Positions 22,933-56,638 of a DNA stretch of 64,000 nt are shown piece after piece. The stretch comes from Ianthella basta. Taxonomy: Eukaryota; Porifera; Demospongiae; Verongiida; Ianthellidae. Location of the stretch: positions 3,262,143 through 3,326,142 of the forward strand of contig OZ025868.1 in the NCBI GenBank assembly GCA_964019415.1. The letters are read 5' to 3'. The notes beneath the pieces are model-generated. The model was given only the letters and a program-made list of their open reading frames with translations, was not told where the DNA came from and made no database searches. Position 1 is the stretch's first letter. Each line of letters begins with the position of its first letter. The position numbers and the translations under genes were made by a program.

Positions 22933-23934
22933 ATGGATGCTTGGAAGAGATTGGCGTTTGGGCAAGTTGCCAGACGATACTCGGCTCCATCCGTCGCCTA
23001 TGTGTATCACCCTAAGCTGAACACACTAGAAGGAGACAAGCAGTCTTTTGAGTGGACGAAAACTGTTCAGCTAAATATTGTACCACAGTCCATTCAGGAA
23101 GGTCTGGAGATGTTGGAGGAAACAAAATGGAGAAAACGCGTTTCAAGCGCCATCCTGCAGTCGAAAGGATACGAGAGTCCTTTAAAGGATAGGACGGACC
23201 CTGATTACGTGTATGGTCTGATACAGAACTTATTCCGAAGCCTATTCGCAGCCTATCCAGAGCGTATGAAGAACACTCACGTGACCTGGGACCCCTCTTT
23301 GGCGGCATCTTGGCATAGAAACGGGAAGAAGTATGCTATTCACGGAAAGACAGGTATTATCATGTCAGGCAAGCAGCCTCTACCCGCTCATTTCTCGAAG
23401 GAGACAGTGGAGGAGTCGAGCAAGAAAGAACTCCCTTCTCTTTGGCCCATTGATACAACTATTGACCTGTCCCGTCAATCCACTTTGAAGGAGCGCTTTA
23501 GTACCAATGCTCACACAAAAACATCATTCCCTCATTTGCACACTATGCTTGTACTATACCAGCAGCCCCTCAAAGACGCCCACCTTATACAAAAGGGGTT
23601 GTGTCTCACTTTTGCACGATTGTTAGCAGAAGCAAAACTGTTGGCAAGAACTGGTGTCCTTAATTCACCATTACCAGGACAATGCATCGCTACCAATGGA
23701 AAGAAGTTCACCTTCTTTTACTATCAGCTAAACACGTTGGACCTGGATGAAGATGCTGGGGTAAAGAACCTGGTCCATGTGGATGGCCCTCATCTGTTGT
23801 ATAGGAAGTTGGAGAAGAAGGAAGGGAAGAAGTGTGTTGTGGACTTGAATGAGCATGTACTAAGACTGTTGATAGCTACTTTGACAAACCAGCAGCAACC
23901 GTTAGGTTCAGTGTCAACAGATAATGCTGCATGA
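22933..23934 (+). CDS. MRPL37: Mitochondrial ribosomal protein mL37, copy B
   Basis: Same length (333 residues) and frame as copy A, with about 16 scattered, mostly conservative substitutions (for example V to L, D to E, S to N) and no stop or frameshift, so it may be functional. The chosen ATG aligns with copy A; an in-frame ATG 36 bases upstream falls within the CRE-palindrome region and is less likely. Retention of two intact copies of a ribosomal protein gene suggests a young duplication. Poly(A) signal AATAAA at about 24140. Confidence 0.85.
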   Translation: MDAWKRLAFGQVARRYSAPSVAYVYHPKLNTLEGDKQSFEWTKTVQLNIVPQSIQEGLEMLEETKWRKRVSSAILQSKGYESPLKDRTDPDYVYGLIQNLFRSLFAAYPERMKNTHVTWDPSLAASWHRNGKKYAIHGKTGIIMSGKQPLPAHFSKETVEESSKKELPSLWPIDTTIDLSRQSTLKERFSTNAHTKTSFPHLHTMLVLYQQPLKDAHLIQKGLCLTFARLLAEAKLLARTGVLNSPLPGQCIATNGKKFTFFYYQLNTLDLDEDAGVKNLVHVDGPHLLYRKLEKKEGKKCVVDLNEHVLRLLIATLTNQQQPLGSVSTDNAA

Positions 23935-31166: not shown

Positions 31167-32209
31167 CTAAATGTGTTTGAGAAAGCATCCTGGTGTGGGC
31201 ATTCCAATTGAAGCACAGTTGAGAGGAACCGCAATGTTCACTTCCTCTTTACCAGTAGTCATATGTATGTCCTGTGTTGTGGCTGCAAAGTGGCATGCAA
31301 TCATGTCCACTAGGATAAGTGAGGGATTCTGCCAAGTTTCGTCTGTGCCATACACATAGCAAGGCAATGGAAGGTGACTTTGATGCTGGCGGCAAACTAA
31401 GAACCATTTGACTTCTGCGAAATACATCCATTTGTCTACTACGTCACCTTTGATCTTGGCTTTAAAATGAACTTTTAGTAGTTGTAGAATTTCACATGGA
31501 CTGAGAGTGCAATTGTTGGCCTGCAACACAACTCCCACTTGTTGAAATGATGGTTTGTAGGCAAATACTTTGGAAGCTTTCCGTCCTCCAAACATTTCTC
31601 CTTCAATTTCCAGGCGAGAGAACTTAAGAGCCAGAGTATGTAGTGAACCTGCCACATATTCGTCGCCATGTGTGGTTTTCAGAATAGTCTCAAGCTCTTT
31701 CTTCCTTGTGTTGGTTAGGAAAATGTTGATTGATTTCTCTGGCTCTTTGCAGGTAGGTTGTGCCTGCCTGGCCAATTGGAATAGTTTGTGGGCATGAACA
31801 AGGCATTCTGCAGGATTTTGGCCATTGTATAGTTCCATTATTCTACTGGCCCGGCTCATCATGTCTGTGGTACTATACTGTGTGCCTTTTTGTTCTTTCT
31901 GGAGGTAGTCAAATGCTGGCCTCAATTTTTCATGAATATCTTCTGTTTTAGTCTTCTCCTTCCTCCATGTAAGCCTCTGATCTGCAAGAAATCGCTGTAT
32001 GATCTGGGTTTCTATGTTTCTGTTGTTTGTTTTGAATGCACCAAGAATTCCATTGTATCGTTCACAACTGAAGAGCCAAAATGAGTATGTCGGTCCATAG
32101 TCCAGTAGACACTCTTTCATGTGCAAATGCAAATGCATGTTAGGCGTAAGCTGGTCATGTCCATATAGGTCTACATATTGCTGCATAAATGCTTTAGGTG
32201 TGAATGTGC
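31167..32209 (-). pseudogene. TNP2 (CACTA-type) transposase, C-terminal part in shifted frame
   Basis: Encodes 'LTPNMHLHLHMKECLLDYGP' and 'FWLFSCERYNGILGAFKTNN', the conserved C-terminal block that follows the tnp2 domain in animal EnSpm/CACTA-like transposases. It continues the protein of 32171-34105 but in a different frame; the switch falls around 32195-32215. Ends at a stop near 31167. Confidence 0.75.
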
Positions 32210-34105
32210 GTCTTCCACCTCAGTCAGAGTGATTGTTCTGGTACAAAGAAGGTAGCATGCCTGTACAAAACTTGTCCAGCACTTGTAATGTCGGTAGGGT
32301 AAGATATCCTTGAGTGCACTTAAAGAAAATATGTTGGTCCAGTTGCGCCACTCTTCAGCTGTGAAGTTAGCAAATTTGCTGGCAATCTTACGGGGAATGC
32401 GTCTAATAACATGGGGCAGACTGAATCTGTCAACCCTTTCTTGCATGACATCAAGATGTTTGTCTGTTATCACTCCTTCTCTTTTCCACAGGGCTATCAT
32501 TCGCTTAGGCGTCCCCAGAAGCAAATTATGCATGGGGTCAATAGCATGGAGTCGTACGCAATCGAAGTAAGGCAGTTCATTGAGAATGGAGTACCGCACA
32601 CTGTATGCTCTCTCCAGTTTCTTTTGTTTAGCTGCCACATTGCTGTTCTTGTGCTGTAGTGCTAGTTGCTTGTGCTTACTAGGATCCCATTTTAGCCAAG
32701 TTGTTTCATCTACAGGGTTCTGAAGTGATTCTTCTGTTACCTCAGCTTCATCGTCCGACTGTTGGACTTCATCATCTGTCACCTCAGCTTCACTGTCCGA
32801 CTGACGGATTTCGTCATCTGTCACCTCAGCTTCACTGTCCGACTGATGGATTTCATCATCTGTCACCTCAGCTTCACTGTCCGACTGATGGATTTCATGG
32901 TCTGTCCATTCAGCTGTGTTCTCTGCTTGCTCAACTTCACCATCCATTTGCTGCACGCCATTATCTGCTTGTGCTTGTTGGAATCTGTCATCTCCATTAT
33001 TGTCATTATCTGTCAGCTTAAATGTAAAGAGACATTTGGAGCAACCTTTTGTGGCATTGTGTGATAAGAACCCAAGGACCTTTCTTGTAGCAGGTATGTC
33101 ACAGCATGTCAAAATAACTGCTGCACGAATCCACCTCTGATTTAGTATCCCTAAAGGATCAGGCACGTATGTACCTTTCCATAGCTGTTCTAATTCCTTG
33201 ACTAACGGCTGCAGGAATGTATTGATAATACCTTTGGGTTCATGTGGACCTGGTATGATGCCACAAATTATGATGTTTTTCACTTTGAACCGTTGATCTC
33301 GTGGAAGATTAAGGATGACTGCATAGATGACCCCAACACTGTAGGTACTCCTGTCGAAAGGTTGAAACCAGTCAACATTGAGCATTAGCACAAAGTTATT
33401 CTTTGCCAACAGAAAGGGTCTACCATCATGTTCTTGAAAGTCTTTCCATACTTGACCATCGTAGATGTCTTCGTATATTCCATCTGAAACAGAGCGTGAC
33501 CTCCAGTGTTCACAATCCACAAGAAATCCAGGCCTCTTAATCATTTCAGCCAGTGTGGCTATTATGCTGTTGTACACAAATGATTTTAGCGGGTAGTGTA
33601 CAGTCTGTTTTCCCCATTTCAAAGCATGTAGGAGTTGAGAGTTACATTGCCTTTTAAAGATATTTGAATTACAGGTATTTACGCGGACAATTTTTCCTTT
33701 GTGGTTCCTTTTTACACATTCTTCAAAGTCATAAAGAGTGTAACATTTGGAACAGGTCACGTAATGCTGTAATGTTGAATCGACTCCTAATTGTTTTCTT
33801 AAAGTATTTACAGTCTTGGGGAAAGCCCTTACAATCTGCTGTATATGGTCAGTTGATAGTTGCTGTCCAAGTTGCAACACCCGTGGCAAGAGCTCTAGTA
33901 AGGATTTTACTGCTGATTTCGTCAGCTTGTACTTTGATTGTAGGAGGAGTAGAAACATTGCCAAGTTCTGATATATAGAATTGACTTCTATTTCAGTAAC
34001 TGGAGACTGGTGGTCGTGTTCCCCTTTTATGCTGTTCATGCTGACAAAGACATCATCATCTTCCTCTGTGTTGTCTTGAATTTGTATACCCACCTCTTCG
34101 TCCAT
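32171..34105 (-). pseudogene. TNP2 (CACTA-type) transposase, main open frame
   Basis: 644 codons. The middle part ('LNVDWFQPFDRSTYSVGVIY', 'ILNLPRDQRFK', 'IIPGPHEPKGIINTFLQPLV', 'CCDIPATRKVLGFLSHNATK') matches the Transposase_21/tnp2 family (PF02992) of EnSpm/CACTA transposons. An early 'CSKCYTLYDFEEC' and 'C...QLLHALKWGK' suggest zinc-binding residues. A 14-residue acidic repeat (EAEVTDDEIHQSDS) occurs four times at about 32740-32930. The frame breaks near 32200 relative to the C-terminal part, so the gene is probably dead unless a small intron is spliced there. An upstream exon is likely (34731-34945). Confidence 0.8.
32740..32930. repeat. 42-base tandem repeat inside the TNP2 transposase frame
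   Basis: Four in-frame copies containing TCATCTGTCACCTCAGCTTC, encoding the acidic 14-residue repeat. Confidence 0.85.
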
Positions 34106-34730
34106 CTGTAAATGGAAAATCAGTTATACTTTGTGCATGTACTTGCCAATGGCAATTATATGAGCATAGTTTGAGGCATGTATGAGTGAACTTGCACAAG
34201 ACTGACCCACTCATCTTCGAATTCATTTTCTAGTTCATCAATGTTGTCCAATGTATCCATGGATGTTTTCTGTATTTCATCATTTGATTGCCCCTGCATG
34301 TGTGAATGTGTATAGGCATGGCATGATTAATGCAGACCTTCTATACAGCGAACAGTGCAGCAGCTATTTCATAGGTTAGCTACTGCTATTGGCTATGCAT
34401 ACACGGTACATGCTTGCATGCCTACCATCATGTGCAGTGACTGATTCATCAAAGGCTTCGGGAGCACATGGTAGTGTAGGCATCATAGTTGAACTTGTGT
34501 CTTCACTTTCAGAATCTGGAATGACTTCGCCTTCATTAACTTCCATTGTAGCCTACGCAGCATGATACATATTTGCATTTATAGAATGTAATTTTCTTTT
34601 CTTCACTAGTCTGTTACCCCATGCACTAGCTCTCTGTGTTATAGTTTGTAAGCTTACTTATAATCGGCAAAAGATAATATCAGTGAAGTAAACCCATCAA
34701 TGCCATTTGGTTTATATATTTACCATCCTC

Positions 34731-38092: not shown

Positions 38093-39867
38093 TTGCAGAC
38101 TACCCATTTGGCATGTCAGTTTGTGGCACCATACCTCCCCCCAGAGGCATTAATAATTCAGACACCTCTAAAAGTGGACGAATGGTCTACCGCGCTAAGC
38201 TTGCATCCCAACCAGGTTTGGGCCCAGGCACTGGTGGAAGGCCTTAGGACTGGGGTTCGGATTGGCTGCTCCCCTGCACGAGTTTGTAAAAGGGCTAAGG
38301 CCAATTGTCAGTCTGCACGTGACCATCCGTACGTCATTGACAAGTACTTGGCCAATGAATTAGCATTGGGTCGAGTGGCAGGCCCATTTGCTGATAGTTT
38401 GCCTGGTGTCATGATCAGCCGTTTGGCGTCATACCAAAATCTGGCCAACCAGGAAAATGGCGCCTTATTGTCGACCTATCTGCCCCATCGGCGGCAAGTG
38501 TCAATGATGGCATTAGTAGTGTGGATTCAGGGATGGCCTACTCATCTGTCGCAGACGCTGCCCGGCTCATTCTGCAGCTTGGTGTGGGTACGGAAATGGC
38601 TAAGATGGATATTGCAAGTGCCTTTCGGCTCATCCCTGTACATCCTGATGATTGCCACCTTCTGGGCATGAAATGGAAGGAACAAGTTTACATTGACATG
38701 CAACTGCCTTTTGGCTTACGATCAGCCCCTGTCCTTTTCAACGGTTATGCAGATGCGTTGAAATGGGTCATCCGTTCTGCAGGTGTGCCATACATCCTCC
38801 ATTATTTGGATGATTTTCTGGTATTGGGTCCTCCTCATTCAGGGGTTTGCAGAGATGCATTAGGTCGCATGCTCACTACTTGCCAGTCTTTAGGGGTGCC
38901 TCTAGCCAAAGATAAAGTAGCAGGACCTGCTACCTCTCTGGTTTTCCTTGGTATTGAGCTTGACTCTGTCCACATGGAAGCAAAATTGCCCAAGGAAAAA
39001 CTCACTCAACTTTGCCAAGAGCTTCAGCAGTGGGCCGTTCGAAAATGCTGCAAGCGTAAAGAGCTAGAGCATTTGTTGGGGGTCCTAAACTTCGCCTGTA
39101 CAGTACTACCTTCTGGACAGTCTTTTCTGCGGCGAATGTTCTCTCTGCTGCACAGTTCAAAGGATCCCAATCGGTTCCTTAGGCTGAATGCAGAATTCAG
39201 GTCAGATTTGGCCTGGTGGTTGGCCTTTGCAAGCAGATGGAATGGAATCTCTTTCTTGCAGCTCTCAGGTTCTGCTGAGCCCTCGGTGGTTTTCTACACA
39301 GATGCTTCAGGGTCGTGGGGCTGTGGTGCCATTTGGGGCTCCCAGTGGCTCCAGGGCCAGTGGCCTTCCGAGTGGGCAGAGACGTCCATAATGTTTAAGG
39401 AACTGGTGCCCATCGTGTGTGCTGCTGCGCTGTGGGGGCCAAACTGGGGAGGGCAACATGTCCTCTGTTTTTGTGACAACATGTCGGTGGTTGCCGCGCT
39501 CAACAAAGGCTCCTCAAAGGAGCCTTCCGGCATTGTCATGCACCTTCTGCGAACGCTTACATTCTTTTCAGCCATTTTTGGCTTTGTTCTGCGGGCTCAG
39601 CATGTGGCTGGCTCCAACAATGGCCCTGCAGATAGCATTTCCAGAGGTAACATGTCCCTGCTCTTCTCACAGGTACCCATGGCATCCAGGGAGCCAACCC
39701 TTATTCCAGATGACCTCTGGACTCTGCTGGTGAGAGAGCAGCCAGATTGGCTCTCAGAGAGGTGGAGGAATCTTTTCACTTCTTTTTGCAAAAAGGCTTG
39801 GCCAACTCCACTAAGAGATGCTATGAGTCAGGTCAGCGCCGATACTTCACCTTCTGTGACAAAGTGA
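38093..39867 (+). pseudogene. Reverse transcriptase-RNase H of the DIRS-like element, one frameshift
   Basis: The first part (to about 38420) has 'YLANELALGRVAGPF', the usual lead-in to DIRS/Ty3-like RT. A missing T at about 38426 (CCGTTTGGCG) shifts the frame; the rest then runs 'KWRLIVDLSAPS' (before 38521), 'KMDIASAFRLIPVH', 'LPFGLRSAPVLFN' and the active site 'LHYLDDFLV'. RNase H follows: 'FYTDASGSWGCG', 'FKELVPIV', 'CDNMSVVAALN' and 'GPADSIS'. Polymerase and RNase H catalytic acids are present, so only the single-base deletion disables the frame. Confidence 0.82.
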
Positions 39868-40709
39868 ACTTCTCTCCGTTGCCTGCATCAGAAAATTCTA
39901 TGGCCCTATTTATCTCCTACTTGGGAAGCGAAAAGGTATCTTACAAAACAATAAAGTCATACTTGGCTGCAGTTAGACATCTACATATTTCATTTGGTTT
40001 ATCTTTCATTGGCTTATCGCCTCGTACCCATCTACTTATCAGAGGTATAAAGCGTACTCAGGGAGATGCTGCAGTTAGACCACGCCTACCAATCACACCT
40101 TCTGTTCTCCGCAACATCAAAACCAGCCTGGCAGGTAAACCCGTGGATTATGACAATCGGTTGTATTGGGCTGCCATGTGTCTTGCCTTCTTCGGCTTCC
40201 TCCGCTGTGGGGAGTTCATAGTACCGGAGGGTCAGGAGTGTGATGCCTCTGTCCATTTAATGGTGAATGACATTGCCATGGACCCTGGTTTATATCCTGC
40301 TGGCATCTCAGTGCGTATCAAAGCATCCAAGACCGATCCCTTTCGACAAGGTGTTACGTTATACCTTGGGAGAACCGGTGTTGACCTTTGTCCTGTGGCT
40401 GCCATGGTTGAATTTTTATCAGTCCGGGGGTCCTCGCCTGGGCCCTTATTTCAGTTCAAGGATGGTTCTGCCCTCCATCGGCAGCAGCTTGTGCGTATGG
40501 TTCGAAGTACCCTTGCTGGTCAGGGCTTTGATGTTTCCCAGTACTGCGGACATAGCTTCCGCATTGGGGCTGCCACAACTGCAGCCCAAAATGGGATTGA
40601 GGACTGTGTCATTAAGACATTGGGCCGGTGGGAGAGCACAGCTTATCAATTATATGTCCATACACCCAGAGCCACGCTGGCATCCTACACCTCCAAACTT
40701 ACAAAATGA
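39747..40709 (+). CDS. Tyrosine recombinase of the DIRS-like element
   Basis: 320 codons, overlapping the end of the RT-RNase H frame by 121 bases, as in DIRS-type elements. The catalytic residues of the phage-integrase/Crypton-type family are visible: Arg in 'FFGFLRCGEF', the box 'GHSFRIGAATTAA' (H-x-x-R), 'LGRWES', and Tyr in 'TAYQLYV'. The N-terminal SAM-like core-binding region includes 'YESGQRRYFTFC' and 'SYLAAVRHLH'. The frame is intact. It would integrate the circular DNA form of the retroelement. Confidence 0.85.
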   Translation: MALREVEESFHFFLQKGLANSTKRCYESGQRRYFTFCDKVNFSPLPASENSMALFISYLGSEKVSYKTIKSYLAAVRHLHISFGLSFIGLSPRTHLLIRGIKRTQGDAAVRPRLPITPSVLRNIKTSLAGKPVDYDNRLYWAAMCLAFFGFLRCGEFIVPEGQECDASVHLMVNDIAMDPGLYPAGISVRIKASKTDPFRQGVTLYLGRTGVDLCPVAAMVEFLSVRGSSPGPLFQFKDGSALHRQQLVRMVRSTLAGQGFDVSQYCGHSFRIGAATTAAQNGIEDCVIKTLGRWESTAYQLYVHTPRATLASYTSKLTK

Positions 40710-41026
40710 ATATTGTATGCTTTTGGCTTTTGTACATTGACTGTATGATTGATTTGACCATGACAGCTCACTGGATTATTCTCTGTTTGACTGCAATCAT
40801 GTCCACTATGTGTATGATTTTGATTATTGAGACTTGCTATGCTTGGCGTCTGTTCTAATGAGGGTAGTTGGGAGGTAGAGTGTCCTGTTATACTGTATAG
40901 AGCTTATGCAGTGGGCGGAGTCGAGACGCCCATCCGCCATATTGGAGGACAACCGCGTGGAACGGTATACATCGAAGGTCTTTTGTTCTAGGTTTTGTCG
41001 CTGTCTGGATAACATTTTCGCCCACA

Positions 41027-42346
41027 ATGGTTAACTTCTGTGCTGTTTTTGGCTGCTCCAATCGTTCTAGCAGAGAAAGATCGAAGAGCTTTTACCGCCT
41101 GCCCTCAATTGTGGAACATCAAGGCCCCGAAACCCACATGCTCAGCGAGAAACGCCGAACACTGTGGCTGTCGCGTCTTCGTCGGGCTGATCTGAAGGAG
41201 AGCCAGTATTCAAATGTTCGTATATGCTCGGACCACTTCGTGAAAGGCAAGCCATCTTCCTTGTATGAGCAGGATGATCCTGATTGGGCTCCCTCTCTCA
41301 GATTAGGCCATTCAAGTGTAAAGGATGGTACTTCTGCAGAGGATAGGCATTCACGATCGCTAGAGAGAAACCGGAAGAAGAAAGTCCTTGAGAAGCAAGA
41401 GGCAGAGTGCATGAAGTGGGAAGAAGGTGAGCAACCAGGCATTGCTTCACAGTCTGCTGCTCTTACTGCTGTGGAAACATGTGTTCAAACGGATTTGAAT
41501 GCCAGTGACATTGAGCGCTTATGTCATCAAGGACAGGACATGCAGAGTATAAGGGAAAGGTTGCAATACCTTGTATTTGACATGGACTCTGCAGTTTCAG
41601 ATGAATCCAGGCTGTCATTTTACACTGGATTGCCAGGCACAGTATTAGATGCACTTGCTCAGCTTGTGTGTCCTCATCTGATGCAGAAGAGTACCCTGGT
41701 TCCATTTCAGCAACTGATTCTGACCCTCATGAAGCTCAGGCTGGGACTATCACAGGCTGACCTGGGATACAGGTTTCAGATAAGCCAGTCTACGGTCTCC
41801 CGCATATTTTGTCACTGTGTTAATGTCATGTATGTAAGGTTGAGATTTCTTATCAAATGGCCAGAAAGGAGTGCTATTCGAAAAACAATGCCCATGGCAT
41901 TTCGAAAGCATTGTCCAAAGTGCACAGTCATCATTGACTGCTTTGAAGTGTTTATTGAGCGACCATCGAATTTGTTGGCAAGGGCTCAGACCTACTCATC
42001 CTATAAGCATCACAATACGGCAAAATATCTGATTGGTGTTACACCACAGGGTACTGTGTGTTTCATTTCAAGTGGATGGGGTGGCAGAGCAAGTGACAAA
42101 CATGTAACCGAGAGTAGTAGACTTCTGTCATTTCTATTACCAGGCGACACAATTCTGGCTGACAGAGGGTTTGACATTGCTGATTCTGTTGGATTGTGCA
42201 TGGCTACCATCAAAATGCCTGCATTCACAAAAGGAAAGGCCCAACTCCGTGGGATTGAGGTGGAACAGACCAGACGGATTGCAAATGTGAGGATCCATGT
42301 GGAACGAGTTATCGGCAATCTCCGCCAGAAGTACTCGTTGCTCTAA
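41027..42346 (+). pseudogene. ISL2EU transposase: THAP finger plus DDE domain, premature stop
   Basis: 439 codons. The N-terminus is a THAP zinc finger ('[10 protein letters not shown]', 'FYRLPS', 'ICSDHFV', C-x2-4-C...C-x2-H). A helix-turn-helix with '[20 protein letters not shown]' follows, then a DDE_Tnp_4-type catalytic domain: D in '[11 protein letters not shown]', D in 'ILADRGFDI', E in '[12 protein letters not shown]'. The frame stops at 42344 (TAA), but the same frame stays open for 40 more codons to 42469 with the family's usual ending ('[13 protein letters not shown]', 'NSVVPFD'). A single nonsense change thus removes the C-terminus; the catalytic triad is untouched. Confidence 0.85.
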
Positions 42347-42579: not shown

Positions 42580-44743
42580 CTACACTTTTCTTTTCTTTTT
42601 TGGTACATGCCTCCTACAGTCAGGGCAGTACCATGTGCGAGAGCGGGGTGGTGCCTTGATTTGTAGACATTCCAGGTGGAACCACTTGCCATGTGGACAA
42701 TTCGCATTATCGCGAGCGACCATGATGCCATATTCAGGTCCATTACAGTAGCAAAAGCTGTCACTGTCCTCTGTGATGAACTGTGTTCCCTCCATTGATG
42801 GCATAGGCTCTGCAGAAGTAGTGCTAGCATCTAAAGTAGGCTGCTGTTCACTACTGTGTGATTTCTGCTGTGGAGGGCGAGAATAGAATTTCCCGAATAG
42901 TTCAGGAAGGATGGCAAGGGTAAAGAACGATTGACATTTCTCAAAACATTCAGTCTGGAACTCTTCTGATGGCCATATGCGTTCCACATGCAAATCTTCA
43001 TTCGTCCACAATACAAAATCACAGAAATCCTTGTCAGTACACAGCAGCTGCCATTGGACCTACAGGAGGGGTTACGGATTGAACACGCAATGGCTGTAAA
43101 TACTGAATAGACATGCATGCATGCAGTGCACCACAGCTGTATCATTACCACCCAAAAATGATTTAGATTTACCTGGTAATAGTACTGATGTGTCCTCTTT
43201 AGTTGGTACCCACTTGCAGCTGTCACCTCAAGGCAGAATTTCTTATCTGCTGTAGAGTCTTCCAACAAGTCATCCTTATGACAATATGGGCACTGTAGAA
43301 TGATACATTGTTGTGTATAAGTTAATTTATACCTGCATAAACCCTAAGCACAACCGATAAATTTAAGCTTAAACCTGAGTGCATACTTACCTTTACTTCC
43401 AAGACACCTTCTCCACAACAGGTGCAGTTGGTGACTCCATCAGGAGATGCCCCACAGAATGGATGCTCAGTGAGCAAGAAAAGGCCACATTCAGTTACGA
43501 AAAAGTCATCGTGGCTTTTCTGCTGCCTTTCACAGTATGCAGTGCGTGCTCTGGCTTCATGCTTACATCCCCAGGTGGTGGCAGCACTCTTGAATCTTGA
43601 CAACTCAGGATAACAAATGGAGGTTATCAAACTGATTGACGGGGAAGACGGATCAGTGTGGCAAACAGCTCGAACCTTTGAGGCTGTGATGCGTCCACTG
43701 CGTAATTGAAACCAGAGTTTTGATTGTGCCTGTCCACGTGTCTTTTCTTCCACTGCAGTCACCTGAGACAAGGTGAGATTCTCCAGCTTGTACGTTGAGG
43801 CAACTTGTAAAAGTGTGGAGTAGGATTCGATCAAGAGGTCTGGGTTATACAGGTTAGCCAAAGGTGCTGGTAAATTTTCCTTCATGCTCACCGGTATGAA
43901 CATCTCTGCAAATGGCTCCACTAATGAACATATAGCAGGCTTTGTTTTGCAGGTGCCCAAGGTTGAAATAAACCTACTCTGCTCATCTTCAGATGGAGGT
44001 GGTACAGATTGGCTACTCACAGCATCACATTCAGATCTTCTGTGTTGCTTACTGAACTTGATTTCAGAAATGCGAGCAGGGTGTGCTTTTTTCACCTCAG
44101 GTGGCATTACCCAGTAGGCCTTCTTATCGGTCACACTTAATGATTCTCTTGTGCGAACACCTGCCTCAATTGCCCACAGTAATGATGCTACATGGGAGCA
44201 AGTTTCACCCAAGCCAGCCATGCAGTTGCAGTGTGCTGTAATTATTTTACCTCCAGCTTCTGCAAGTACCCATGGGATAAGGGGCTTCTCATTCAGGCGC
44301 TGTGAATGGTTCACCTACGTATGTGCAATGTAGACAGCAATGTAGACAGTGTCTGGATCAAAATTCTGCACATATCTTCACAACTGAGCTGGTGTATAGC
44401 TCACCTTTGCCACCATTAACACAATGTCTCCAGAGCATCTTCTCACGAGCACTTCTCTAACCCAGCCAGCGAGGAATCTCTCATAACTGTCCATACTCTT
44501 GTAGTTTTCAAGATCTTCTTTCGTGTACGGACTCGGAGTGAACAAAAGATACAATCCTACATGAATGTAGGTAATGGCTGGCCAGCTGTCCACATCGTCC
44601 TGCCACTCTTCCGTGGGAATTGAGTACGGATCGTCGCCGCCGATGAACGCCAATTTTTCCAAGTACCTCTTCTTGTCTTCGACACTTTTTATTGACTCTT
44701 GATAACTTGGAAGAAGACCACTCGCAGCCATTGTCTTAGGCAT
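42580..44743 (-). CDS. ISL2EU accessory protein: SWIM zinc finger, YqaJ nuclease and PHD finger
   Basis: Four exons (minus): 44405-44743, 43391-44314, 43173-43292, 42580-43059; phases agree, 620 residues. Exon 2 has a SWIM finger ('CNCMAGLGETCSH') and the YqaJ/lambda-exonuclease-like domain ('WFQLRSGRITASKV', 'WGCKHEARARTAY', 'GASPDGV', 'EVLEVK'-type active-site acids). The last exon ends in a PHD-like finger ('CYCNGP', 'CPHGKWFHLECL', 'WYCPDC') and a basic tail KKKRKV. ISL2EU elements commonly encode a YqaJ protein next to the transposase; its role in transposition is not established. The gene has no visible lesion. The start could be the second ATG at 44730. Confidence 0.85.
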
Positions 44744-45815: not shown

Positions 45816-46517
45816 TTCAAAATGGCGTCCCTATCTTAATGTATTAAGGCGCTTCAGTGAAACTAGCCAAACGGCAGTGGCAAAGAACAATTAAAGGCCA
45901 CAGGTAGGCTACTTTTGGTGTATTGACGACGGCAGTGTGCCCAAAGGCAACATGTAATGCACGTAAGAGAAAAGCGTCATAGGCTGCTCGTCACGGGTGT
46001 TTCGAAAGTAGCGCTGCCGGAATGTAAGTTTCTGCGCATGCGCAGAAACACGTGACTTGCCCGAAGCCTGGCTAGCGCGGGCTGAAGTTTATTCGACTCT
46101 CCCCCTCGTACAATATACAATGGGCTTCAAGCACCTTATACTGTACGACAGAAAAGTATGTTCAGTTTACCTACAGCGTGCGATGGTAAGCCAAAGTGCA
46201 TACGGCGTAAATTATGCTGTTTGCTTTATCCAACGATTTGTGAATGTAATAATTTTCCCCGGTTTTTTGTGATCAATTGTGTTAGTTAAATGTGAAGAGC
46301 AGATATGAAAGTTACTGTTGATCAACGTTTTATCTTGCTACTTATTTTTCTCAGCGCTTGTTTGGGGATTGTGTTTTGGCAAGTGTATGTATATATGTTC
46401 CGCTCTTCGAATGCGCAATGCAATCTGGGAATACTGTGTGTATTTCAGGACACTGGCATTGCTTGACTTGACTTGCTTGACAGGATGTGGCATGTCTTTA
46501 CTTTTACTTGCTAGGTG

Positions 46518-46703
46518 TTAAGGCACACTCAAGCCCTGGTCACAGCAGCAGCTTCGAATGAAACCACTTTGTCGGCACCTAACACGAGTGAAGAAAACAG
46601 CAAGCATTGGGGTCATGATAGGAAGGGATACTCTTTTTCGCCATCAAATAGCTACGGTTTCATTCGAAACTGCTGCTGTGACGGAGCCTTGCATGTGCCC
46701 TAA
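46518..46703. mobile_element. MITE-like hairpin with TTAA-type ends
   Basis: Inverted arms TTAAGGCACACTCAAGCCC... and ...CATGTGCCCTAA share a near-perfect core: GTCACAGCAGCAG and CTTCGAATGAAACC against GGTTTCATTCGAA and CTGCTGCTGTGAC. About 186 bases. The outermost TTA(A/G) suggests a piggyBac- or Kolobok-like origin. Confidence 0.7.
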
Positions 46704-46825
46704 CGTCTAGCATGAAAAAGTGGAGAGATACTTAGACCTCGCAATGCCAATGTCCTGAAGTTTTCCTGCATTGTGTTGTACGTTCTATAGATTGCGCAAA
46801 TTCATAGAAAATGCAGAACTTATAT

Positions 46826-46925
46826 ACAGTGCAAGTTATAAAATACAGTGCAAGTTATAAAATACAGTGCAAGTTATAAAATACAGTGCAAGTTTAAAAT
46901 GCAGTGCAAGTTATAAAATACAATA
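46826..46925. repeat. Tandem ACAGTGCAAGTTATAAAAT repeats
   Basis: Five 18-20-base units carrying ACAGTGCAAGTTATAAA, followed by one inverted half-copy (ATAACTTGCA). The core CAGTGCAAGTTA recurs in inverse orientation at 57.9-58.1 kb. Confidence 0.9.
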
Positions 46926-46929
46926 TAAC

Positions 46930-47542
46930 TTGCAATATTTATTATTACTAGCTCAGTACCTGCCCTTCGGGTGGAATACTTCCCAGCCCATTTGCAATTT
47001 ACCTAATCAAAACTATTTTATTGGGATCCTTCTGTAGATTCTTTCTGTAAAACTCATTGGGCACAATCTTCTGATGTTGATTCATTCAAGCTCAGGGGTG
47101 AACACGCCAACCATAGTAGATCACTCCTTGGATTGTCATGATATAGTTTTCCATGTTTGGTTTTAAACTGAAGTCCACATTCAACGAAAATGCAGTGTTT
47201 ACCCTATCTCTTAAATATGGGGGCGATGGTAAAGATGCAAGAACTCAGACAGAATGACTTTAAGCCAAATTTTAGCTAAACCATGTTACTTTCATTACAC
47301 TTATCTGTATCCTACCATGTTTGATTGCCATCCATCGAAATCAAAGGTGTATTCCCTGAACATTATCATCCATTGACTTTGTACAATGAGATTTGAATAC
47401 ACCATGTGCAAAGCACACTGGGCTCCCTGCCCCTTGCATGCAGCTCTATAATAAAATTGTTGAATGTTGTGTGACACAATGCAGTATACATAGCCAGTAA
47501 TGATTGTGCATTACAAGTAATAGTGCTATAGAATAGTTATAG
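46930..47542. other. Spacer downstream of the RAG1-like gene
   Basis: AT-rich, no gene recognised. It is the 3' flank of the RAG1-like gene and could be the subterminal part of a transposon. Confidence 0.5.
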
Positions 47543-47880
47543 TTACTTCTTACGCCTCTTTATTAGTGGTCGGGCTGCATCTGTGGATGGGCATACTTGG
47601 AGCTGATGCTCCTGGAATATTAACCTAAGCTGCTCCTGTGGATTCCGAACAGATGCATATGTACGTCCTAAACTATTAAAAATGGCATGGATGGACTCCG
47701 CACCCTGCTCTCCGTGAAACCCAGGACAAAAGTGCCACCTCTGCATCCAAGGTACAATGTGGTCTTCTAACATGTGCATTTTTGGTGTCACTGAAGCCAG
47801 TGGAAATTCTTCTCTGTAATATGCCATGAATTCTGTCACATCCAGTCCTGAAAATATATAAATAAATAAATAAATGGAAA

Positions 47881-47938
<58 letters not shown>

Positions 47939-50900
47939 CAAGTCTTGTGATGTGTGCATGTGTTTTAACACATATATCTACAGCTTATGACAAGGTACAA
48001 TTTAGTAACTTACGAAACTGTCTTATGCCCTCATCTGAAATTGGCTGTGCTTTACTGTAGGTGTTATGGCACTTGGCGAACAGTTGGAAAAGTTTTCGGA
48101 ACTTCCTTGACGTAGTTTCAGCAGCTACCACCAAGGAGTGGTCTTCCCGAGGTATGGTAGTAATGCAGTCACATAGTTTGTCTATAGTATCAGCCTAAAA
48201 TGCAGATCATTATTAACAACTCAGCAATCTAATTAACTTATTGCAGATTTAACATGTAATAAGTTACCTTGCAGCATTGGTGCACATGGTTGCCAACGAA
48301 TGTGCTTCCATGATAGGCCTGGCGCTCTACCCCACATTCCTTCAGGGCCTTGTTCACTTGCTGCACGAATGGTCCTAGATGTAGTCTAAACTCAGGAGGA
48401 GTTAGAGACTGGACCTCCATTCTCTATATTGGAAAATACATAGCAGCAATTCACCATATCCTATTGTAAACTGGCAGTGATTCACTCTATAGACTCACTA
48501 GTCTGTCAGCTTGCTGCCTAAGGTGCTGTGCTTCCTGCATGAGTTGTTCCACTTGTTCCTGTACTTCACTGTTGTCTTGTGCATCCAGGGCAAACCATAT
48601 AGCCAGTTGGTCATTGCTCTCAGCCATACTCTCGCACTGTTGTACCATATCTTCGTTGTCTGCTATCTTCTTTAGGGCTGTTATATAGGCATTGAAATGC
48701 TGGTTTGCCTCTGTAGATGTAGTTAGAGTTGCTGCTAGCTTCACATCCAACTCATGGCATGCCTCTTCGTATAGTTGAAATAGCCGTAGAAAGATCCCTA
48801 AACTAATGTGTAAGGCTGGTACACACACCTAAATTGATGTACAACAAATGCCAATAGTTAAATTACATACTGTATAGCAGGAAATATTGACAGGCACACT
48901 CATATTACGAGTGTGCAGCCCATGCATGCATGCACATGCGTTGCAGTTGATATGGCCCTGCTGAAATACCTACTGATGGAAGGACCTGTTCTCAACTGTG
49001 ATGCTCTTTCAAAGAAGGAAACAGAACAGGTGAACGAACGCATGAGGGGAGCTCTTGTGCTTGGTGAACAAGCGAAGGTAGGGAAGAAGCGCAGAGCGGC
49101 ACGTACATCAGCTACACCCCTGAAGAAGAGTGAAGATAGGGAAATATGCAGCTGAAAACGGGCCAGCCATAGCTACTAGGTACTTCACGGTACCTGGAAC
49201 AACCGCATGATGTTCCCTGCATTCGTAGAAATAGTGCACAAACAGCTGATGGCTTTTTCTCGAGACATGCCCAACGATGGCACTCTTTCGCGTCACTGCC
49301 ACGGCGTATGGATCTTTCGTATTGCTGCTTTCCCTCACACATGGCAACTCTTCATCAGCTGTTGGACTCCAGATTTCTTTATAAACATGGTGAGCATGAA
49401 TGCAGCTCTCCACCTCCAAAGCCTCCATAGTAGCCGTTGACACATGCTCAAGCATCAATACACGCGAGTTGAGTGCAATTTTGTGACATCATTGGTCTTG
49501 GACTCGAAATCTGACAAATTTAAAACGCTCCAAATCCCTTTTTTCAAATCTGCCAAATTTTGTGCCTGCCAATATTTCCCGCTATACGGTAGTGGCGGGG
49601 TTTTTAATTTGGTGGATTTTCTGAAAACCGTCAAACCGCCAAATTTAAAACCCTGCCAATATTTCCCACTATACAGTACGTACATACGTATTAATGCCAG
49701 ACTGGCATGTTTACCTGATCCAGAGGGATGTTGAAGAAGTAAGGCTGGATGACGTTGTAGAAGAATTTTGCATTCTTGAGCATACTTCCTGCTGCCGTGA
49801 ACTGGTGAAAGTCTCTCTCTAGTGTATGTATGGTTCGAGCTGCAGGTGTTTCTCTCACAGCAAGAGGAATTTTCATTTCTTGTGATGTGATGGTGCACCA
49901 CAGACAGCAGTGTCGACCTGTGCAAAGTGAAAAGTCAGTTATTCTAAGGTTGACTAACAGTATTGAGGACTGGTGTATATAGCACAGTAGTGCTTACCAG
50001 TGGGCCCAGAGAGACCGAATATTCTACACAGAAATTCGTAGTCTCCGAAAAGGAAGACTCGGATACGTTTGCCCCTTTATAAAGTAATGATGAGAGTGAT
50101 TTAGTGATGTTACACATGTATGGTGTGTTTTAGGTGTTGCATACCTCCAAGTAGTGCCAGATTGTAGCCTGCTGACTTGATCAGTGTATGTGTCCAGTGC
50201 CAGATGTAGGTTGGTAGTGGAGTCTCCGGCCTTAAAACAACAGAAGACACAAGTCTTCTTTCCCGAGTTAGGTTTGTCTCGGTTGGCTATCTGCATCACA
50301 AATATACTATATGTACTAAAGACACCCCAGGGACACATACACACAAATGATTACATCACCTGGAAGGACATCTTGAAGGAACCGCCTCCTTTGTCCCCTC
50401 CCACCTTCACCCAAATTTCATCATTGGGGATAGCATTGTCATGCCATGTGAGTGCTTCAGTTCTGTGTGAAGGTAATTGTAGGACCTGTGAACATGCTGC
50501 GTGTGCTTGATGAACGAAGACATACTGTATGTACAGTACATGTCACAAGAAACTTATGTCATTCCATTGAATTCTGCTGATATTCTGCGAAGCTGCTGCG
50601 CAGCGCGCCGTGAAGCATCTATGCACAGTCCGTAAATCGTCTGTCCAGAGTCCGAAAAATGTGTCCTGTCCGCAGCATTTCTGAACCAGTTTCACAGAAC
50701 GTCAGCTAGGCGATGATTCTAGCGCACGAAATTGTTTCTGTAGCCATATTATACGTAGGTAGCTACTACAGAAAACATGGCGGACAAAGATTCTAATCAT
50801 GTGCGATCAGTCGTATGATTCTTCTCAGCGAATCTGCGTATTCTCCATGGCGAATTTGCAGGCTATTCGTGAGGTTCTGTACAGACACCGCAAAAGTTTT

Positions 50901-53571
50901 TTGGAGTATTTGCGACCTACTGTAACTTTGCTGCCCATGTTTCGCATACTGCCCTACAGCGAATCTGCAGAATAATGTAAGTTTCTTGTGACAAGTACCA
51001 TATGTGCATATAGTGTCTTAGAACTTACTCTTCAAGCTCATCCAGATAGGATAGTATCCTTCGTACTAAATCTGGTGTGTACACACATGGGGCTGCTCTC
51101 AGTTCTTCTCCGTTCAAGGTCGAAAATGAGAAAGGCATAGTTTCCACTTCTGTGTCACCTGCAGACCACTTCTTTGCCAACTCTCTCTCCTTCTTCTCGC
51201 TGGCAAGCTTGACTCCCCACTTTGCCAACCACCTGTTCATTGCAGAATGGACAAGAGTTACGTAGGTATGAAGGATTCAACAAATGTGGAGCTTTCCTTT
51301 ATTAGCAGCACTAGAATTCAATGTTAACAGTTGTGTCTGGCTTTCATACAATGTAACATGTCCTGCATATGTAAATAGCTGCTATACATGAGTTTCTTAT
51401 GGCAGAGATCATAACCAGTCCCATGGCCCCATTATAGTACCTTTATTGAGGAATTCTCACCTACGGATGCTCCTCAGTTTCTTCCAAGGAATGGCAAGAT
51501 CTGCCTTCATTGCCAGTATATCTGCTACAGGGGTCTCATGGGGAACTGTGATGCCTGCTTCCCTCAACAACGTGTCTCTTTCATCCCGGTTTTGTCGAAT
51601 CTCATGTGCTAGTTGAATCCTAGCTGAAGATAAGTCACCACCACTAACCTTCTGGCGGAGGGCAGCCAGATGCTTCGATCTATTCATTAATGTGCGTGGG
51701 CACGCTTCATCACTAGGAATTCTGCCATGAACAATTCTTGTATATGTGAGTGGCTGCGTGTAATAGTGGAAATTGTAATAAATATCCAGGATGTGAAAAC
51801 TGGATTGGGTAGCCAGTCAGTGTCTATATACAATATATCACATCATGGCAACAGGTGATATCTGGTATGTGAAACATGTTGTATCACACTTCAACTTGAT
51901 GTGGTGTGTATTATTTATATCACACTTGAGTGTGGCATAAGTAATACATGTGTGTGAGTTGTGTAGCGTGTCAAACCACTAAGTTGTGCCAGCTCAGCAT
52001 GTCTTTGGGGCCATAGTTTACTTCAGCAATGCTGAACAAGCTCAAATGCCTAAAACCGCTATTTATTCAGCCCAATAGTGTAAATAGTATGTAGTGCATT
52101 ATATATACCACGGGAGCTATCTTCAACTGTGTTATGACATCACATCCCTAGTGGGTCAGTCGTCATATTTACATGGCCTGTGTGCATATATACCAGTTAA
52201 ACGTCTTCTAGCTTGCATGCCCTACTTCAATAAGCCTGAACTGGATATGTGGACTAATTTACTTACTGGGCCTCCTGTTGGCAATGTGAGATCTTGATCT
52301 GTTGCCCTCTCACACCTTGAGTTTATCATTCGCCTGATGATGTGTGTGGCTGCTCTTTGTTCTATCATGGTAGGTGTTTTTTCAATTGGTGCATTTAGCA
52401 CACTTCGTAGACTGATGGCTGATGGTGTGGAAGGAGCTCTTTGGCTAGAGTTTACTTCCTGCTCCGGTGGAGAATCCATGTCCTGCTCCCGTGGAGGGTC
52501 TACGTCCTGCTCCGGTGGAGGGTCTACGTCTTGCTCCGGTGGAGGGTCTACGTCCTGCTCCGGTGGAGGGTCTACGTCTTGCTCCGGTGGAGGGTCTACG
52601 TCCTGCTCCGGTGGAGGGTCTACGTCCTGCTCCGGTGGAGGGTCTACGTCTTGCTCCGGTGGAGGGTCTACGTCCTGCTCCGGTGGAGGGTCTACGTCCT
52701 GCTCCGGTGGAGGGTCTACGTCCTGCTCCGGTGGAGGGTCTACATCCTGTTCTGGAGGTGCGCTTGCATTCATGTGCTCTGTAAGGTCTGTGGATGCAAC
52801 ATATTCTGCTTGTGATTTGGGGCGCCCTCTTCCCTTTGTCCGTTTTGATGGCCTGCCTCCTTTCAGTTGCACATCTACTTTCTTACATGTGTTGCAGTCA
52901 TGTCCTGTGTGTCTGCCCCACCTCTCTGGCTGGGTTGAGCAAGTGTAGTCATGCCCATCTCTTGCATGCTGTTCATAATGAATCATTGCCTTCATGGGAT
53001 GGAGAGGGTACGTATAATTTGTATATAGTACTAGGATTGGTAGAATGCATGCAATTTTTTCTTCTGCATGTGTTGATGCACACCACAATAGATTTACCTG
53101 TGCTATAAAGTGAACCTATATGGTCACCTGTCCTGTTATTGCTGACACCGTATACTGAGATTTTGAAATGATTCAATTTGGTAGTGTGGCAGCTGTCAGG
53201 ATATCTGCCGATATAATAGCCCACCACTATTCCTCACCATGTATTTTTGGGGCATGGAATCTGCTTATTTAAAACCCCTGCATATAGCCATTTTCGGGCA
53301 ATCTGCCTATTTTGTACCTGCCATGCAGTATTTCCCATTATACAACGGCTGTACAATATATATTATAGCTTACCATGTAGCATGCATTGCAGAATTGCTT
53401 TGGATGTACTTCCTTCTGGTCCTCCTTTACTTGCACCTTAAAGGCAGTTTCCAACCTCTCAGCGTAATCAAGACAGTTGTATGTAACTCTGTACCGTTGT
53501 GACCTGGCCAGTAGTTTAGCACAAATTCTACACAACTTCATCAGATTCGTTCGATGAGCCTCCATGTTCAT
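47543..53571 (-). CDS. RAG1-like (N-RAG-TP/Chapaev-type) transposase-like protein, 12 exons, intact
   Basis: Exons (minus): 53374-53571, 52267-52989, 51461-51753, 51029-51232, 50360-50462, 50145-50290, 49998-50074, 49715-49917, 48499-48828, 48268-48423, 48014-48194, 47543-47847. All phases agree: 972 residues, no lesion. Residues 1-66 resemble the RAG1 N-terminal zinc motif ('LCRICAKLL', 'VHPKQFCNACY'). Exon 2 is basic with 'HDCNTCKK' and about eleven PPPEQDVD repeats. The core can be laid along RAG1: Asp496 in 'VKVGGDKGG', Asp567 in 'LFGDYEFL', Cys586/Cys589 in 'CLWC', His896/His901 in 'KMHMLEDH' and Glu922 in 'GEQGAES' match the RAG1 D-D-E triad and zinc ligands in order and spacing style. 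Related proteins are frequent in cnidarian and mollusc genomes. It could be an active transposase or a domesticated gene. The RAG1 alignment was made by eye. Confidence 0.82.
47886..47934. repeat. (AT)n microsatellite
   Basis: About 24 AT units in the last intron of the RAG1-like gene, upstream of the acceptor at 47848. Confidence 0.96.
49110..49458 (-). pseudogene. HIRAN-domain gene fragment, frameshifted
   Basis: 'CIHAHHVYKEIWSPTADEEL', 'NTKDPYAVAV' and 'IVGHVSRK' match the HIRAN domain (found in SWI/SNF helicases such as HLTF and in many stand-alone invertebrate proteins). After GHVSRK the continuation ('AVCALFLRMQGTSCGC', 'SRYREVPSSYG') is in another frame, so the copy is broken near 49260. 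It lies in the intron between exons 49715-49917 and 48499-48828 of the RAG1-like gene, same strand. Confidence 0.65.
49515..49682. repeat. Repeat with TTTAAAACCCTGCCAATATT blocks
   Basis: Two related, partly inverted blocks contain CTGCCAATATTTCCC followed by a CTATAC motif. A diverged copy is at about 53255-53350. It resembles a small MITE; ends not defined. Confidence 0.55.
50532..50996. mobile_element. MITE-like element with TGTCACAAGAAACTTA ends
   Basis: The left end TGTCACAAGAAACTTATGTC and the right end TAAGTTTCTTGTGACA are inverted repeats about 465 bases apart, in the intron between exons 51029-51232 and 50360-50462 of the RAG1-like gene. AGTAC occurs on both sides, a possible 5-base duplication. 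Confidence 0.65.
52481..52745. repeat. 24-base coding minisatellite in RAG1-like gene
   Basis: About eleven copies of TGCTCCGGTGGAGGGTCTAC plus four bases, encoding the octapeptide PPPEQDVD on the minus strand. Copies differ only by silent T/C changes, so the array is young or homogenised. Confidence 0.95.
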
Positions 53572-54341
53572 GCACTAACTGCTGCTATACTAAAACAGCT
53601 CTAGTTGCTCAACACCTGTTTTATACTATTCCGTACAGGAAAACACCCCCACTTTTCCTGTCATGCTACTTTGTTTCCTGCATCCTTCCTAGTTGATAAT
53701 CAGCAAGTAATTCATCATGCCTGTGCCTGTTCATTGAGTGGGTTGTGTAACTACGTGCTGCCTGGCTGTTTTGCTGTTTTATATGCGCATTGTTTACCAT
53801 TAAGCATTAACTTTAACTAGCTATGCTCATGCATGGCATTCTTGAATAGATTATGTTTGTGAAACTTCACAGTAAGCTTCTGTGTTTTTCTCCCTTCTCA
53901 GGTACAATCTTACGTAGAAACATACTTATTTGTATAGAACAAAATCTCCACATTTTTCTTACTTGTTTATGAACTTTATGTTTACGATGTTGTATACAAT
54001 GAATGTTTAAGTCTTGAACAATATGGATGTATGTATGTAATATGTATATGAATATTATGTGCGGCAGTTGTGCACGACATTTGCATGCAGTCTAAAGATT
54101 TTGCATGTATTCTCTTCAGCTGTACATGAAAATCTAAGCGAGAGATTTGTGCAAGTTGTACATGATATGCATGAGTACAATTGTTTGGTCATATAATTAT
54201 ATTGTTGATTGAATCATATAAAATTGTGATCATGAGTCAAAGCAAATGGATTATACAATGTCATGCATTTGGGAAAATCGCAATGGCTTAGAGTTCGTGA
54301 TTGTCATCAGTGCAATGCTAGCTTGCTATTGTCAGTTGGCT
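53572..54341. other. Spacer upstream of the RAG1-like gene
   Basis: 770 bases of AT-rich sequence between two minus-strand genes; expected to include the RAG1-like promoter. No motif recognised. Confidence 0.5.
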
Positions 54342-55228
54342 CTAGCATGCAGGTCTTTTCCGTTTGTACACTTGGCGTATGTACACCGGGGAAGGCCAAT
54401 CCTGTTCTTGCAGTGGCTGTGCTTGCATGTCCGGGTACGTTGCTAGCCACTCTTCTTTAAACTCATATTCCCCGTCATCCTGCGCCTGCTCATCACATGC
54501 ACTATCAGTCATCTCCCATTCTTCATCCGTGTTCTCTGCATAAAATTGCATGGTGTTATAATTAATCACTGCATTTCACCATTTGGGCACGTTTTGAAAC
54601 CAACATGATGACTCACTGGCTGCCTCTTCCTCAACATCAGAGCTGTACATGTTGAATGAGCCTGTGGACAGCATAGTGCATGTACATGCACGTGTACCCT
54701 ATATTATATTATTATAATTATGACATTCAATTTTTGAAGAGTGTCAAGTTTGTGTGGTATATAATTATATAAGTTCTGAATAATATGCAGCTGATCAATA
54801 TTGTAATACTCACTGTACAAATGCTCAGAGGGATGCGAGTGAGGACAAAGGCAGGGGCAGGAAGCCGTTGCTTCTTTGCTGCTGCTGCTTGGGCCTGTGC
54901 ATGATTATATGTTCATTGATCAATTTTAGCTAAATACAGGGAAATCCTATGAAGTTATAATACATTGTACTCACTGTCCAATTGCTCAAAAGCAATTGTG
55001 GGTGGATGAGGCTTTTGAGGTGTTGGTAGGAAGATATGCCGGTCTTCCTCCCACTGGCTATAGCTAGCTATAATCTTAGATGGCGTCTCAGGCACACAAG
55101 TAACTTCTGGTAGTTCTTTAAAGTCACCCTTCTTAGCCTCCTGTTAGGCATTTAAATGAACATAATTAGCTACAAATTTAAATCTTTCCATTTGTATTAA
55201 CTTAGTTTACCTTATCACTTTTCTCCAT
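54342..55228 (-). CDS. Unrecognised five-exon gene for an acidic 167-residue protein
   Basis: Exons (minus): 55211-55228, 54975-55140, 54814-54894, 54617-54661, 54342-54535. All have GT-AG borders and agreeing phases (504 nt; introns 2-4 are phase 1), ATG to TAG. The protein begins MEKSDKEAKKGDFKELPE, has a Cys/His-rich stretch (SCPCLCPHSHPSEH) and a long acidic segment (DEEWEMTD...DDGEYEFKEEW), and ends basic (YKRKRPAC). No family recognised and no resemblance to RAG2. It lies 770 bases upstream of the RAG1-like gene on the same strand and inside the interval bounded by the inverted 12-base motif arrays, so it may be a second protein of the same element. The start codon is uncertain. Confidence 0.6.
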
Positions 55229-55239
55229 AGTTAGTTTCA

Positions 55240-56638
55240 CGCACAGAACCAGATTGAGCTTGGGGATTAGCTGAAGAACTAGACTCTCTAGCTTCTTGGG
55301 CAGTACTAGCTTAAGTATTACAGGTAGCTAGCCCATAACGTGTGCTATCTTGAGTTTAATCTGTACACATCCCGTGCAATTTCCTTTCACACATGCACAC
55401 CCATGCTGACCCATCCACCCACACCAGCTCATGCACCTCCCACTCCTTCTCACATAACTATTATGGTGCAAGTTGTATTATTATATTAATCTACAGTAAT
55501 TAATTCTTGTATGATAATTGTATATAGCTATAGCTATAGCTATGCATGCATAATAGCTAGCTAATTAGCTACAATAGCTATAAATAGAGGGTGGGGGTGG
55601 GGGAGGCTCTGCCCCCTAACTGAAAGCCCCATAGAATCTACTTGCACCCTTAAAAATAGCTATGTAGCTAGCTACTAGGCTAGCTAGCTATACAATTATG
55701 TTATGAACAGTGGTGGCGGAACATGGTTGGGTTTGGGGGGGCTGCTTATAGCTAGTGGCAAAGCCAATCATACATGTGCCCATTATATTCAAGATACAGC
55801 CCCCTAGCCCCCCCCCCCCCCCCCCCCCCCCCTACCTACCGCCGCTACCGCCGCCCTACGTTAGCTATGAATGAAAATGTTCCTTCACACATGCACATAG
55901 CTACAGGCATCACTGTCAGGGATTGCATTGTTATATACATGCAAAGCATTGTTCCCTGTATGTTGTCACTGCCACATGGGTACATGTGTACAGCCATAGC
56001 TATAGAGTTAGCTGAATTCTTCCAGAATCTGTAGGAAAAAATAAGTAGCAAATTGAATTCAAGTGAATTCAGCTTAAAGTATCATTAGCTTGTGCTGGTA
56101 TGTAGTGATTTCGTTCAGAAAACCCGGAGGAATGATAACACGATTATGTATAGCCAGCATAGGGAAAACACACAAAGAGCTACGCCATTGTCTTGATTGC
56201 GCAATCTAGTTTTGTACGCGTGCGAAACACCCGTGTCGTACCCCATTTGTTGTCTTTTCATATTATTCTTGTTCTCCTTCCCACCGAATATTTGCCCGCT
56301 CCTAGCGCACGACACAGAGCACCTACGGACCCAAGTCGTGCACAAGGACTTACGTACCTAGGTCAAGGACTAGGATCTGAGCGCCGGTGGCAATCCGATA
56401 AGTATAGCCCTGGAGCGGGCAGGAAATTTGTCCTCCCCGTGTATTAAAGATACCCCAATACCGCCATTTTGTTTGCGCTGGTATACCGTACAATACACAG
56501 AAGCCGCATCATCTAAAAGTGGCGCAATTGTGCTCGATGCTCTACACAATTTTCAGCTAATTTAAGGAAGGGGTATTAGTCAGCGCTGGTATCAATCTGA
56601 TATAACCATAGTCCTTTGGATATGCAAAAACTCTACAA
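55240..56638. other. Spacer with poly(C) run
   Basis: Contains a C homopolymer of about 23 bases at 55809-55831 within CCCC-rich sequence and AGCTAGCT-rich stretches. No gene recognised. Confidence 0.5.

Follow-up and report, generated by a model that had tools for sequence, protein, structure and literature searches.

The RAG1-like gene on the minus strand of the 64,000-nucleotide stretch of DNA analysed here (the window) encodes, with a probability of about 93%, the transposase of an autonomous cut-and-paste element that belongs to the Chapaev superfamily (to classical Chapaev and not to Chapaev3) and has been recently mobile in a probable demosponge. RAG1 itself is the vertebrate antibody-gene recombinase and a cousin of Chapaev. 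The gene is regarded as part of a mobile element and not as a domesticated gene because of its terminal repeats, target duplication, empty site and four genomic copies. An earlier note on this DNA had proposed an N-RAG-TP/Chapaev-type transposase or a domesticated descendant of one, in a likely non-bilaterian animal. The probable demosponge host agrees with the last of these, and the Chapaev type stands, all the Chapaev hallmarks tested being present with one 5-base pair (bp) exception, while N-RAG-TP in the strict sense does not, the core being complete, and domestication was not upheld. That note had missed where the element ends, that it carries a second gene, that its transposase has an 8-residue repeat and that a RING finger is lacking.

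Chapaev transposons are described as having generally 3-4 bp target duplications, 5'-CAC/GTG-3' ends and a transposase of the DDE type that bears the motifs C(2)C, LH and H(4)H (PMC4079192). In keeping with this the ends read CACGGGTGTTTCG and CGAAACACCCGTG in all four copies, the duplication is 4 bp in three of them and 5 bp in one, and the transposase has D496, D567 and E922 together with C586/C589, PALHI and H896/H901. A DUF1280 core and a Chapa N-terminal zinc domain are likewise both present.

The complete element and its copies

The genome from which the window comes (209 Mb, 96 contigs) was searched with the open frame of transposase exon 6, which matched at 100% in three places, the window included, and at 98% in a fourth. 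The copy-number search that the earlier note had advised thus gave four full-length copies, three of them intact, each spanning CACGGGTGTTTCG to CGAAACACCCGTG. The window copy measures 10,244 bp, C22a and C22b 10,275 bp each, and C4, which holds further inserted sequence, 11,873 bp; the left end was additionally matched by a 40-base fragment on C2. The target duplications of the four copies are TCGT (window), AGCT, TGGCA and AAGA, none of them the 3-bp TWA given for Chapaev3 (PMC4079192). The window copy is inserted in a repeat that is abundant in the genome: its two flanks, when joined, matched over their junction at 40 further places (40 of 777 candidates scored), and one aligned paralogous empty site reads through uninterrupted with a single TCGT. 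Perfect palindromes lie near both ends, at 46029-46048 (TTTCTGCGCATGCGCAGAAA, left) and 56195-56206 (GATTGCGCAATC, right), and are possible candidates for transposase binding sites.

The recent activity suggested by the earlier note is supported by C22a and C22b, which lie at different places and have 4 differences in 10,275 bases (0.04%). The window copy differs by 0.33% from each C22 copy and by 1.4% from C4, with the repeat that codes for PPPEQDVD being 72 bp (three units) longer in both C22 copies. The exons are open throughout in three of the four copies (972, 996 and 996 amino acids) with identical splice sites, whereas C4 has two in-frame stops and has lost part of exon 9 including the acceptor. 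The transposase is intact because the insertion is recent.

A diverged sister element of 9,485 bp, E37, lies on C1 with the ends CACGGCTGTTTCG, a variant that occurs at one end of L037, L038, L044 and L046, and in the case of L037 at both. Selection was examined by comparing the transposases of the window and E37 over 750 codons, giving a proportion of non-synonymous differences (pN) of 0.325 and of synonymous differences (pS) of 0.805, the latter saturated, with pN below pS in 500 of 500 bootstraps. Judged from the sequences, this would be as expected if transposases stay functional between transpositions.

Structure of the transposase gene

The transposase gene runs from 53571 to 47543 with 12 exons, GT..AG borders throughout and 972 codons without a stop, its exon chain and intactness as proposed in the earlier note being borne out by translation and by the breaks seen in relatives. 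Several in-frame alternatives exist for the junction of exons 2 and 3, giving variants of 907 to 1001 amino acids. The 972-residue version, with donor CCA/GTAAGT and acceptor ACACGCAG/, was preferred and the other joints rejected because the tblastn segments of relatives break at residues 306 and 308 of this version, stopping at 306 and resuming at 308 in L037, L042, L044 and L045 (4 of 10 loci) with L041 likewise resuming at 308, so that the joint is backed in 5 of the 10 loci compared. Further exon joints recurring in relatives from the same genome fall at residues 405, 508, 556, 582, 650, 760 and 871. Intron 8 carries an insert (48868-49591) flanked by 31-bp inverted repeats that are 90% complementary, within which a HIRAN-like fragment was matched on the minus strand at 49108-49488 (E 0.0019, below the Pfam cut-off).

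Domains and predicted active site

The motifs listed in the earlier note were all found at their positions. The N-terminal part has CRIC at residue 14 and HPKQFCNACY at residue 56, followed in the core by D496 (GGD), D567 (FGDY), CLWC (586-589), PALHI, HMLEDH (896-901) and E922 (ESIH). Comparison with Pfam placed PF12560 (RAG1_imp_bd) on residues 2-124 (E=2.4e-9; 37.6 bits against a cut-off of 23.3) and PF06918 (DUF1280) on residues 387-551 (E=3.9e-14; 53.2 bits against a cut-off of 25), such that both domain matches exceed chance, and no RAG1 core family appeared in the list to E<=10, a list from which the HMMER filters remove most matches with E above roughly 0.1. The first 144 residues, searched as a single sequence, matched a solved N-terminal chain of RAG1, 21wb, with an E of 2.6e-4; with a homologue profile the E for this chain was 5e-12.

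A protein search gave 25 homologues, those named being from Hydra, Branchiostoma, Strongylocentrotus and the sponge Ephydatia. All but P0025 were aligned (24 sequences, alignment A1); a second search with the alignment as query gave 55 matches, 50 of them new and kept outside the alignment. The profile of the 24 homologues matched RAG1 residues 106-380 with an E of 1.2e-22, the alignment taking in the zinc domain, the RING and then the C2H2 stretch. All 24 homologues have D567 and D530, while D496 is conserved in 23 (one gap) and E922, which pairs with RAG1 E962 in the alignment, in 20 (four gaps). Structural comparison of the modelled homologue P0002 suggests that the core has the RAG1 fold among the fold families listed, with 13-16% identity to RAG1 in the structural alignment.

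The invariant D530 was considered as first catalytic acid, since hhalign sets it beside a RAG1 acidic stretch and opens a gap at D496. D496 is preferred as the first acid of the predicted active site because in the model it comes close to the end of the first strand, the place that RNase H topology would predict for RAG1 D600; closing the gap by hand puts D496 one residue off D600.

If it works like its homologues RAG1, ProtoRAG and Transib, the transposase would dimerise and bring the two CACGGGTGTTTCG ends together. D496, D567 and E922 would form the metal site that cuts both strands, set in an RNase H fold that the CxxC/HxxxxH zinc site completes, and the ends would be joined to the two strands of the target at a spacing of 4 bp. 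The Chapa domain may, as in RAG1, bind zinc and serve in regulation, in nuclear entry or in contact with a partner.

No RING was recognised by Pfam in the window protein, where the interval from Chapa domain to core is occupied by the acidic 8-residue repeat (PPPEQDVD)n. Among the 25 homologues a precomputed RING domain is present in four (P0001, P0006, P0011 and P0022). When five RING stretches were searched against nine records, one of the window element and eight of related loci, L040 not among them and several of the loci incomplete, a clear RING was found only in L042 (best E 1.8e-6), where it lies between Chapa domain and core (L042:6428-6718). As at least one RING-bearing lineage thus stands beside the RING-less window lineage in one genome, the RING has been gained or lost within the group, which bears on when the relatives of RAG1 acquired or lost their N-terminal parts.

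A conserved second gene

Upstream of the transposase gene and on the same strand the element holds a second open reading frame (ORF2) of five exons (54342-55228, minus) that codes for 167 residues (MEKSDK...KRKRPAC), of which 34 are acidic and 16 are basic. Positions 54352-55465, in the right part of the element, align at 66% with E37, in which the exon pattern of ORF2 is identical and 98 of 155 aligned residues are the same; pN (0.208) was again below pS (0.525) in 500 of 500 bootstraps. The open frame of its last exon was found at nine places in the genome, all nine adjoining Chapaev transposase sequence: the four full-length copies and L037, L038, L040, L041 and L042, with the transposase matched as a fragment only in L038 and L040. 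ORF2 was not found in L043-L046, loci in which the transposase was matched and the ends are not all included. The orientation of the two genes relative to each other differs between lineages, ORF2 being on the same strand and upstream in L040 as in the window element, divergent from the transposase in L037, L038 and L042, and on the same strand and downstream in L041.

ORF2 matched no Pfam family at E<=1, and therefore no kelch or PHD call was made, and its best PDB match was at chance level (E 0.88). As regards a RAG2-like convergent kelch gene, for which ORF2 alone was checked, ORF2 is neither convergent nor matched by Pfam. ORF2 probably serves the element in an accessory or regulatory role, or as a partner of the transposase. 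The conserved ORF2 is a new feature with no earlier description found, and a literature search at the level of titles and abstract openings, with Repbase Reports outside its scope, found no description of a two-gene sponge Chapaev. A bolder and rather doubtful proposal is that these elements form a two-protein Chapaev lineage, in which a transposase of RAG1 architecture works with a dedicated, acidic 167-residue partner under selection, resembling the division of labour between RAG1 and RAG2 with an unrelated partner and outside Bilateria. In such a lineage each of the two genes would retain a separate reading frame, whatever its orientation to the other.

Alternative readings

Several observations weigh against the assignment to Chapaev. 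The protein modelled was the homologue P0002 and not that of the window, the comparison of the core with the RAG1 core by hhalign was weak overall (probability 8%, E 0.0043) and it left D496 unpaired with D600 across a gap of eight columns. In addition, one of the four target duplications is the 5-bp TGGCA, as in Transib and RAG, of which an empty copy was looked for in the genome and not found, and no matching target duplication is present at E37. Transib, with its 5-bp duplication, was nonetheless rejected, the empty site also showing 4 bp.

That a host gene was domesticated from such a transposase would be consistent with the intact frame and with splice sites identical in three copies, yet it is very improbable, since the unit around the gene has terminal repeats, a target duplication and an empty site. 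A domesticated gene would have a single locus and no mobile ends, whereas this one has several loci and mobile ends. Two of the four full-length copies are only 0.04% apart at different places, and intactness follows from recent movement; that the copies are assembly duplicates is opposed by their different flanks and different duplications. Even less probable is a RAG-like (RAGL/ProtoRAG) transposon with RAG1L and RAG2L genes, with which the element shares the N-terminal zinc domain and fold, a second gene and the one 5-bp duplication. The core belongs to DUF1280 and not to a RAG1 core family in the filtered Pfam list, its structural identity to RAG1 is low, the duplications are mostly of 4 bp, as at the empty site, and ORF2 is without a Pfam match and has a single chance-level PDB match, its orientation relative to the transposase not being the convergent one described for RAGL (PMC7204232). 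The Aplysia N-RAG-TP in its strict sense, an element of the RAG1 N-terminal-like part alone, shares the N-terminal motif by the account of the earlier note and is equally remote, as a complete core of predicted RAG1 fold is present in the window protein. N-RAG-TP may itself belong to Chapaev. Compared by description only, it consists entirely of RAG1 N-terminal-like sequence (PMC8355894).

Features of the window

Table 1. Positions of the Chapaev element and its two genes within the window.
Feature	Position	Strand	Remark
Complete Chapaev-type transposon, 10,244 bp	45992..56235		ends common to three other insertions at unrelated sites
Left target-site duplication, TCGT	45988..45991		single TCGT at paralogous empty site
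Right target-site duplication, TCGT	56236..56239		single TCGT at paralogous empty site
Left terminal inverted repeat, 13 bp	45992..46004	+	CACGGGTGTTTCG
Right terminal inverted repeat, 13 bp	56223..56235	-	CGAAACACCCGTG on + strand
Transposase exon 1	53374..53571	-	start codon; the half of the Chapa / RAG1 N-terminal zinc domain that carries CRIC...HPKQFCNACY; PF12560 residues 2-124
Transposase exon 2	52267..52989	-	remainder of Chapa domain, then (PPPEQDVD)n repeat
24-bp tandem repeat, 12.4 units	52453..52749	-	codes for PPPEQDVD
Transposase exon 3	51461..51753	-	joint backed by relatives
Transposase exon 4	51029..51232	-	DUF1280 match (residues 387-551) covers exons 3-6
Transposase exon 5	50360..50462	-	D496
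Transposase exon 6	50145..50290	-	invariant D530
Transposase exon 7	49998..50074	-	D567
Transposase exon 8	49715..49917	-	CxxC 586-589
Transposase exon 9	48499..48828	-	LH motif and helical insert
Transposase exon 10	48268..48423	-	
Transposase exon 11	48014..48194	-	
Transposase exon 12	47543..47847	-	HxxxxH 896-901, E922, stop
ORF2 exon 1	55211..55228	-	start codon; aligned to E37
ORF2 exon 2	54975..55140	-	aligned to E37
ORF2 exon 3	54814..54894	-	least conserved
ORF2 exon 4	54617..54661	-	aligned to E37
ORF2 exon 5	54342..54535	-	stop; C-terminus KRKRPAC

Elsewhere in the window lie a transposase of the CACTA/EnSpm kind (31167-34123, minus; Transposase_21 with weak DUF4218 and DUF1258) with an acidic SDSEAEVTDDE repeat, an open frame with THAP, HTH_Tnp_4 and DDE_Tnp_4 domains (40901-42346, plus) and a frame with a YqaJ-like recombinase domain (43322-44314, minus). 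At 38398-40709 (plus) a reverse transcriptase frame overlaps a tyrosine-recombinase frame, an arrangement typical of DIRS-type retroelements. Two intronless mS30 (PDCD9)-like frames about 5 kb apart (17735-18748 and 22873-23934, plus) are 95% identical over 335 residues; a search with an mS30-like protein gave seven matches, that of the window being one of them. As regards the host, the mitochondrial contig C96 (21,233 bp) bears cox1 with in-frame TGA, atp9 (ATP synthase subunit c) and, within the 4.3 kb that were read, four tRNAs. A mitochondrial atp9 together with such a wealth of tRNAs would suggest a demosponge.

Comparison with known systems

A Chapa domain is described in Chapaev transposases, followed by a RING in two subgroups, and has been linked to RAG1 (PMC4411706). 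The earlier note had singled out the combination of a RAG1-like N-terminal region with a RAG1-like core; as it is in print for Chapaev in the same source, it is not new here. Similarly, DUF1280 has been identified with Chapaev and grouped with RAG1 (PMC3985635), and the motifs common to EnSpm, Mirage, Chapaev, Transib and RAG1 have been catalogued (PMC12730594).

Since its ends, target and empty site are known, this apparently intact Chapaev, which has moved recently, is suited to biochemical tests, both of RAG1-like cutting and joining by wider relatives and of the role of a RAG1-type N-terminal zinc domain in a transposase. ORF2 offers a concrete starting point for finding a partner protein that is not RAG2.

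Like RAG1 and ProtoRAG (BbRAGL), the window protein has the N-terminal zinc region, a predicted RNase H core fold, the D-D-E order, CxxC, HxxxxH and the same domain order; unlike them, its core is only 13-16% identical to RAG1, it has no RING and no RAG2-like partner was recognised, with mostly 4-bp duplications. Transib (HzTransib) differs in being described without the N-terminal region (PMC7204232) and with duplications of 5 bp (PMC8355894). With the Aplysia N-RAG-TP the element has in common a RAG1 N-terminal-like domain in a mobile element, N-RAG-TP being set apart by its description as the N-terminal part only. The closest likeness is to classical Chapaev (PF06918), with which it shares the Chapa domain and DUF1280 core, C(2)C, LH and H(4)H, CAC/GTG ends and, in three of four copies, 4-bp duplications; it departs from the RING-bearing subgroups in having the acidic 8-residue repeat in place of the RING, and from described Chapaev in its conserved second gene and probable sponge host. 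As such the element is an unusually clean and recently mobile member of a known family.
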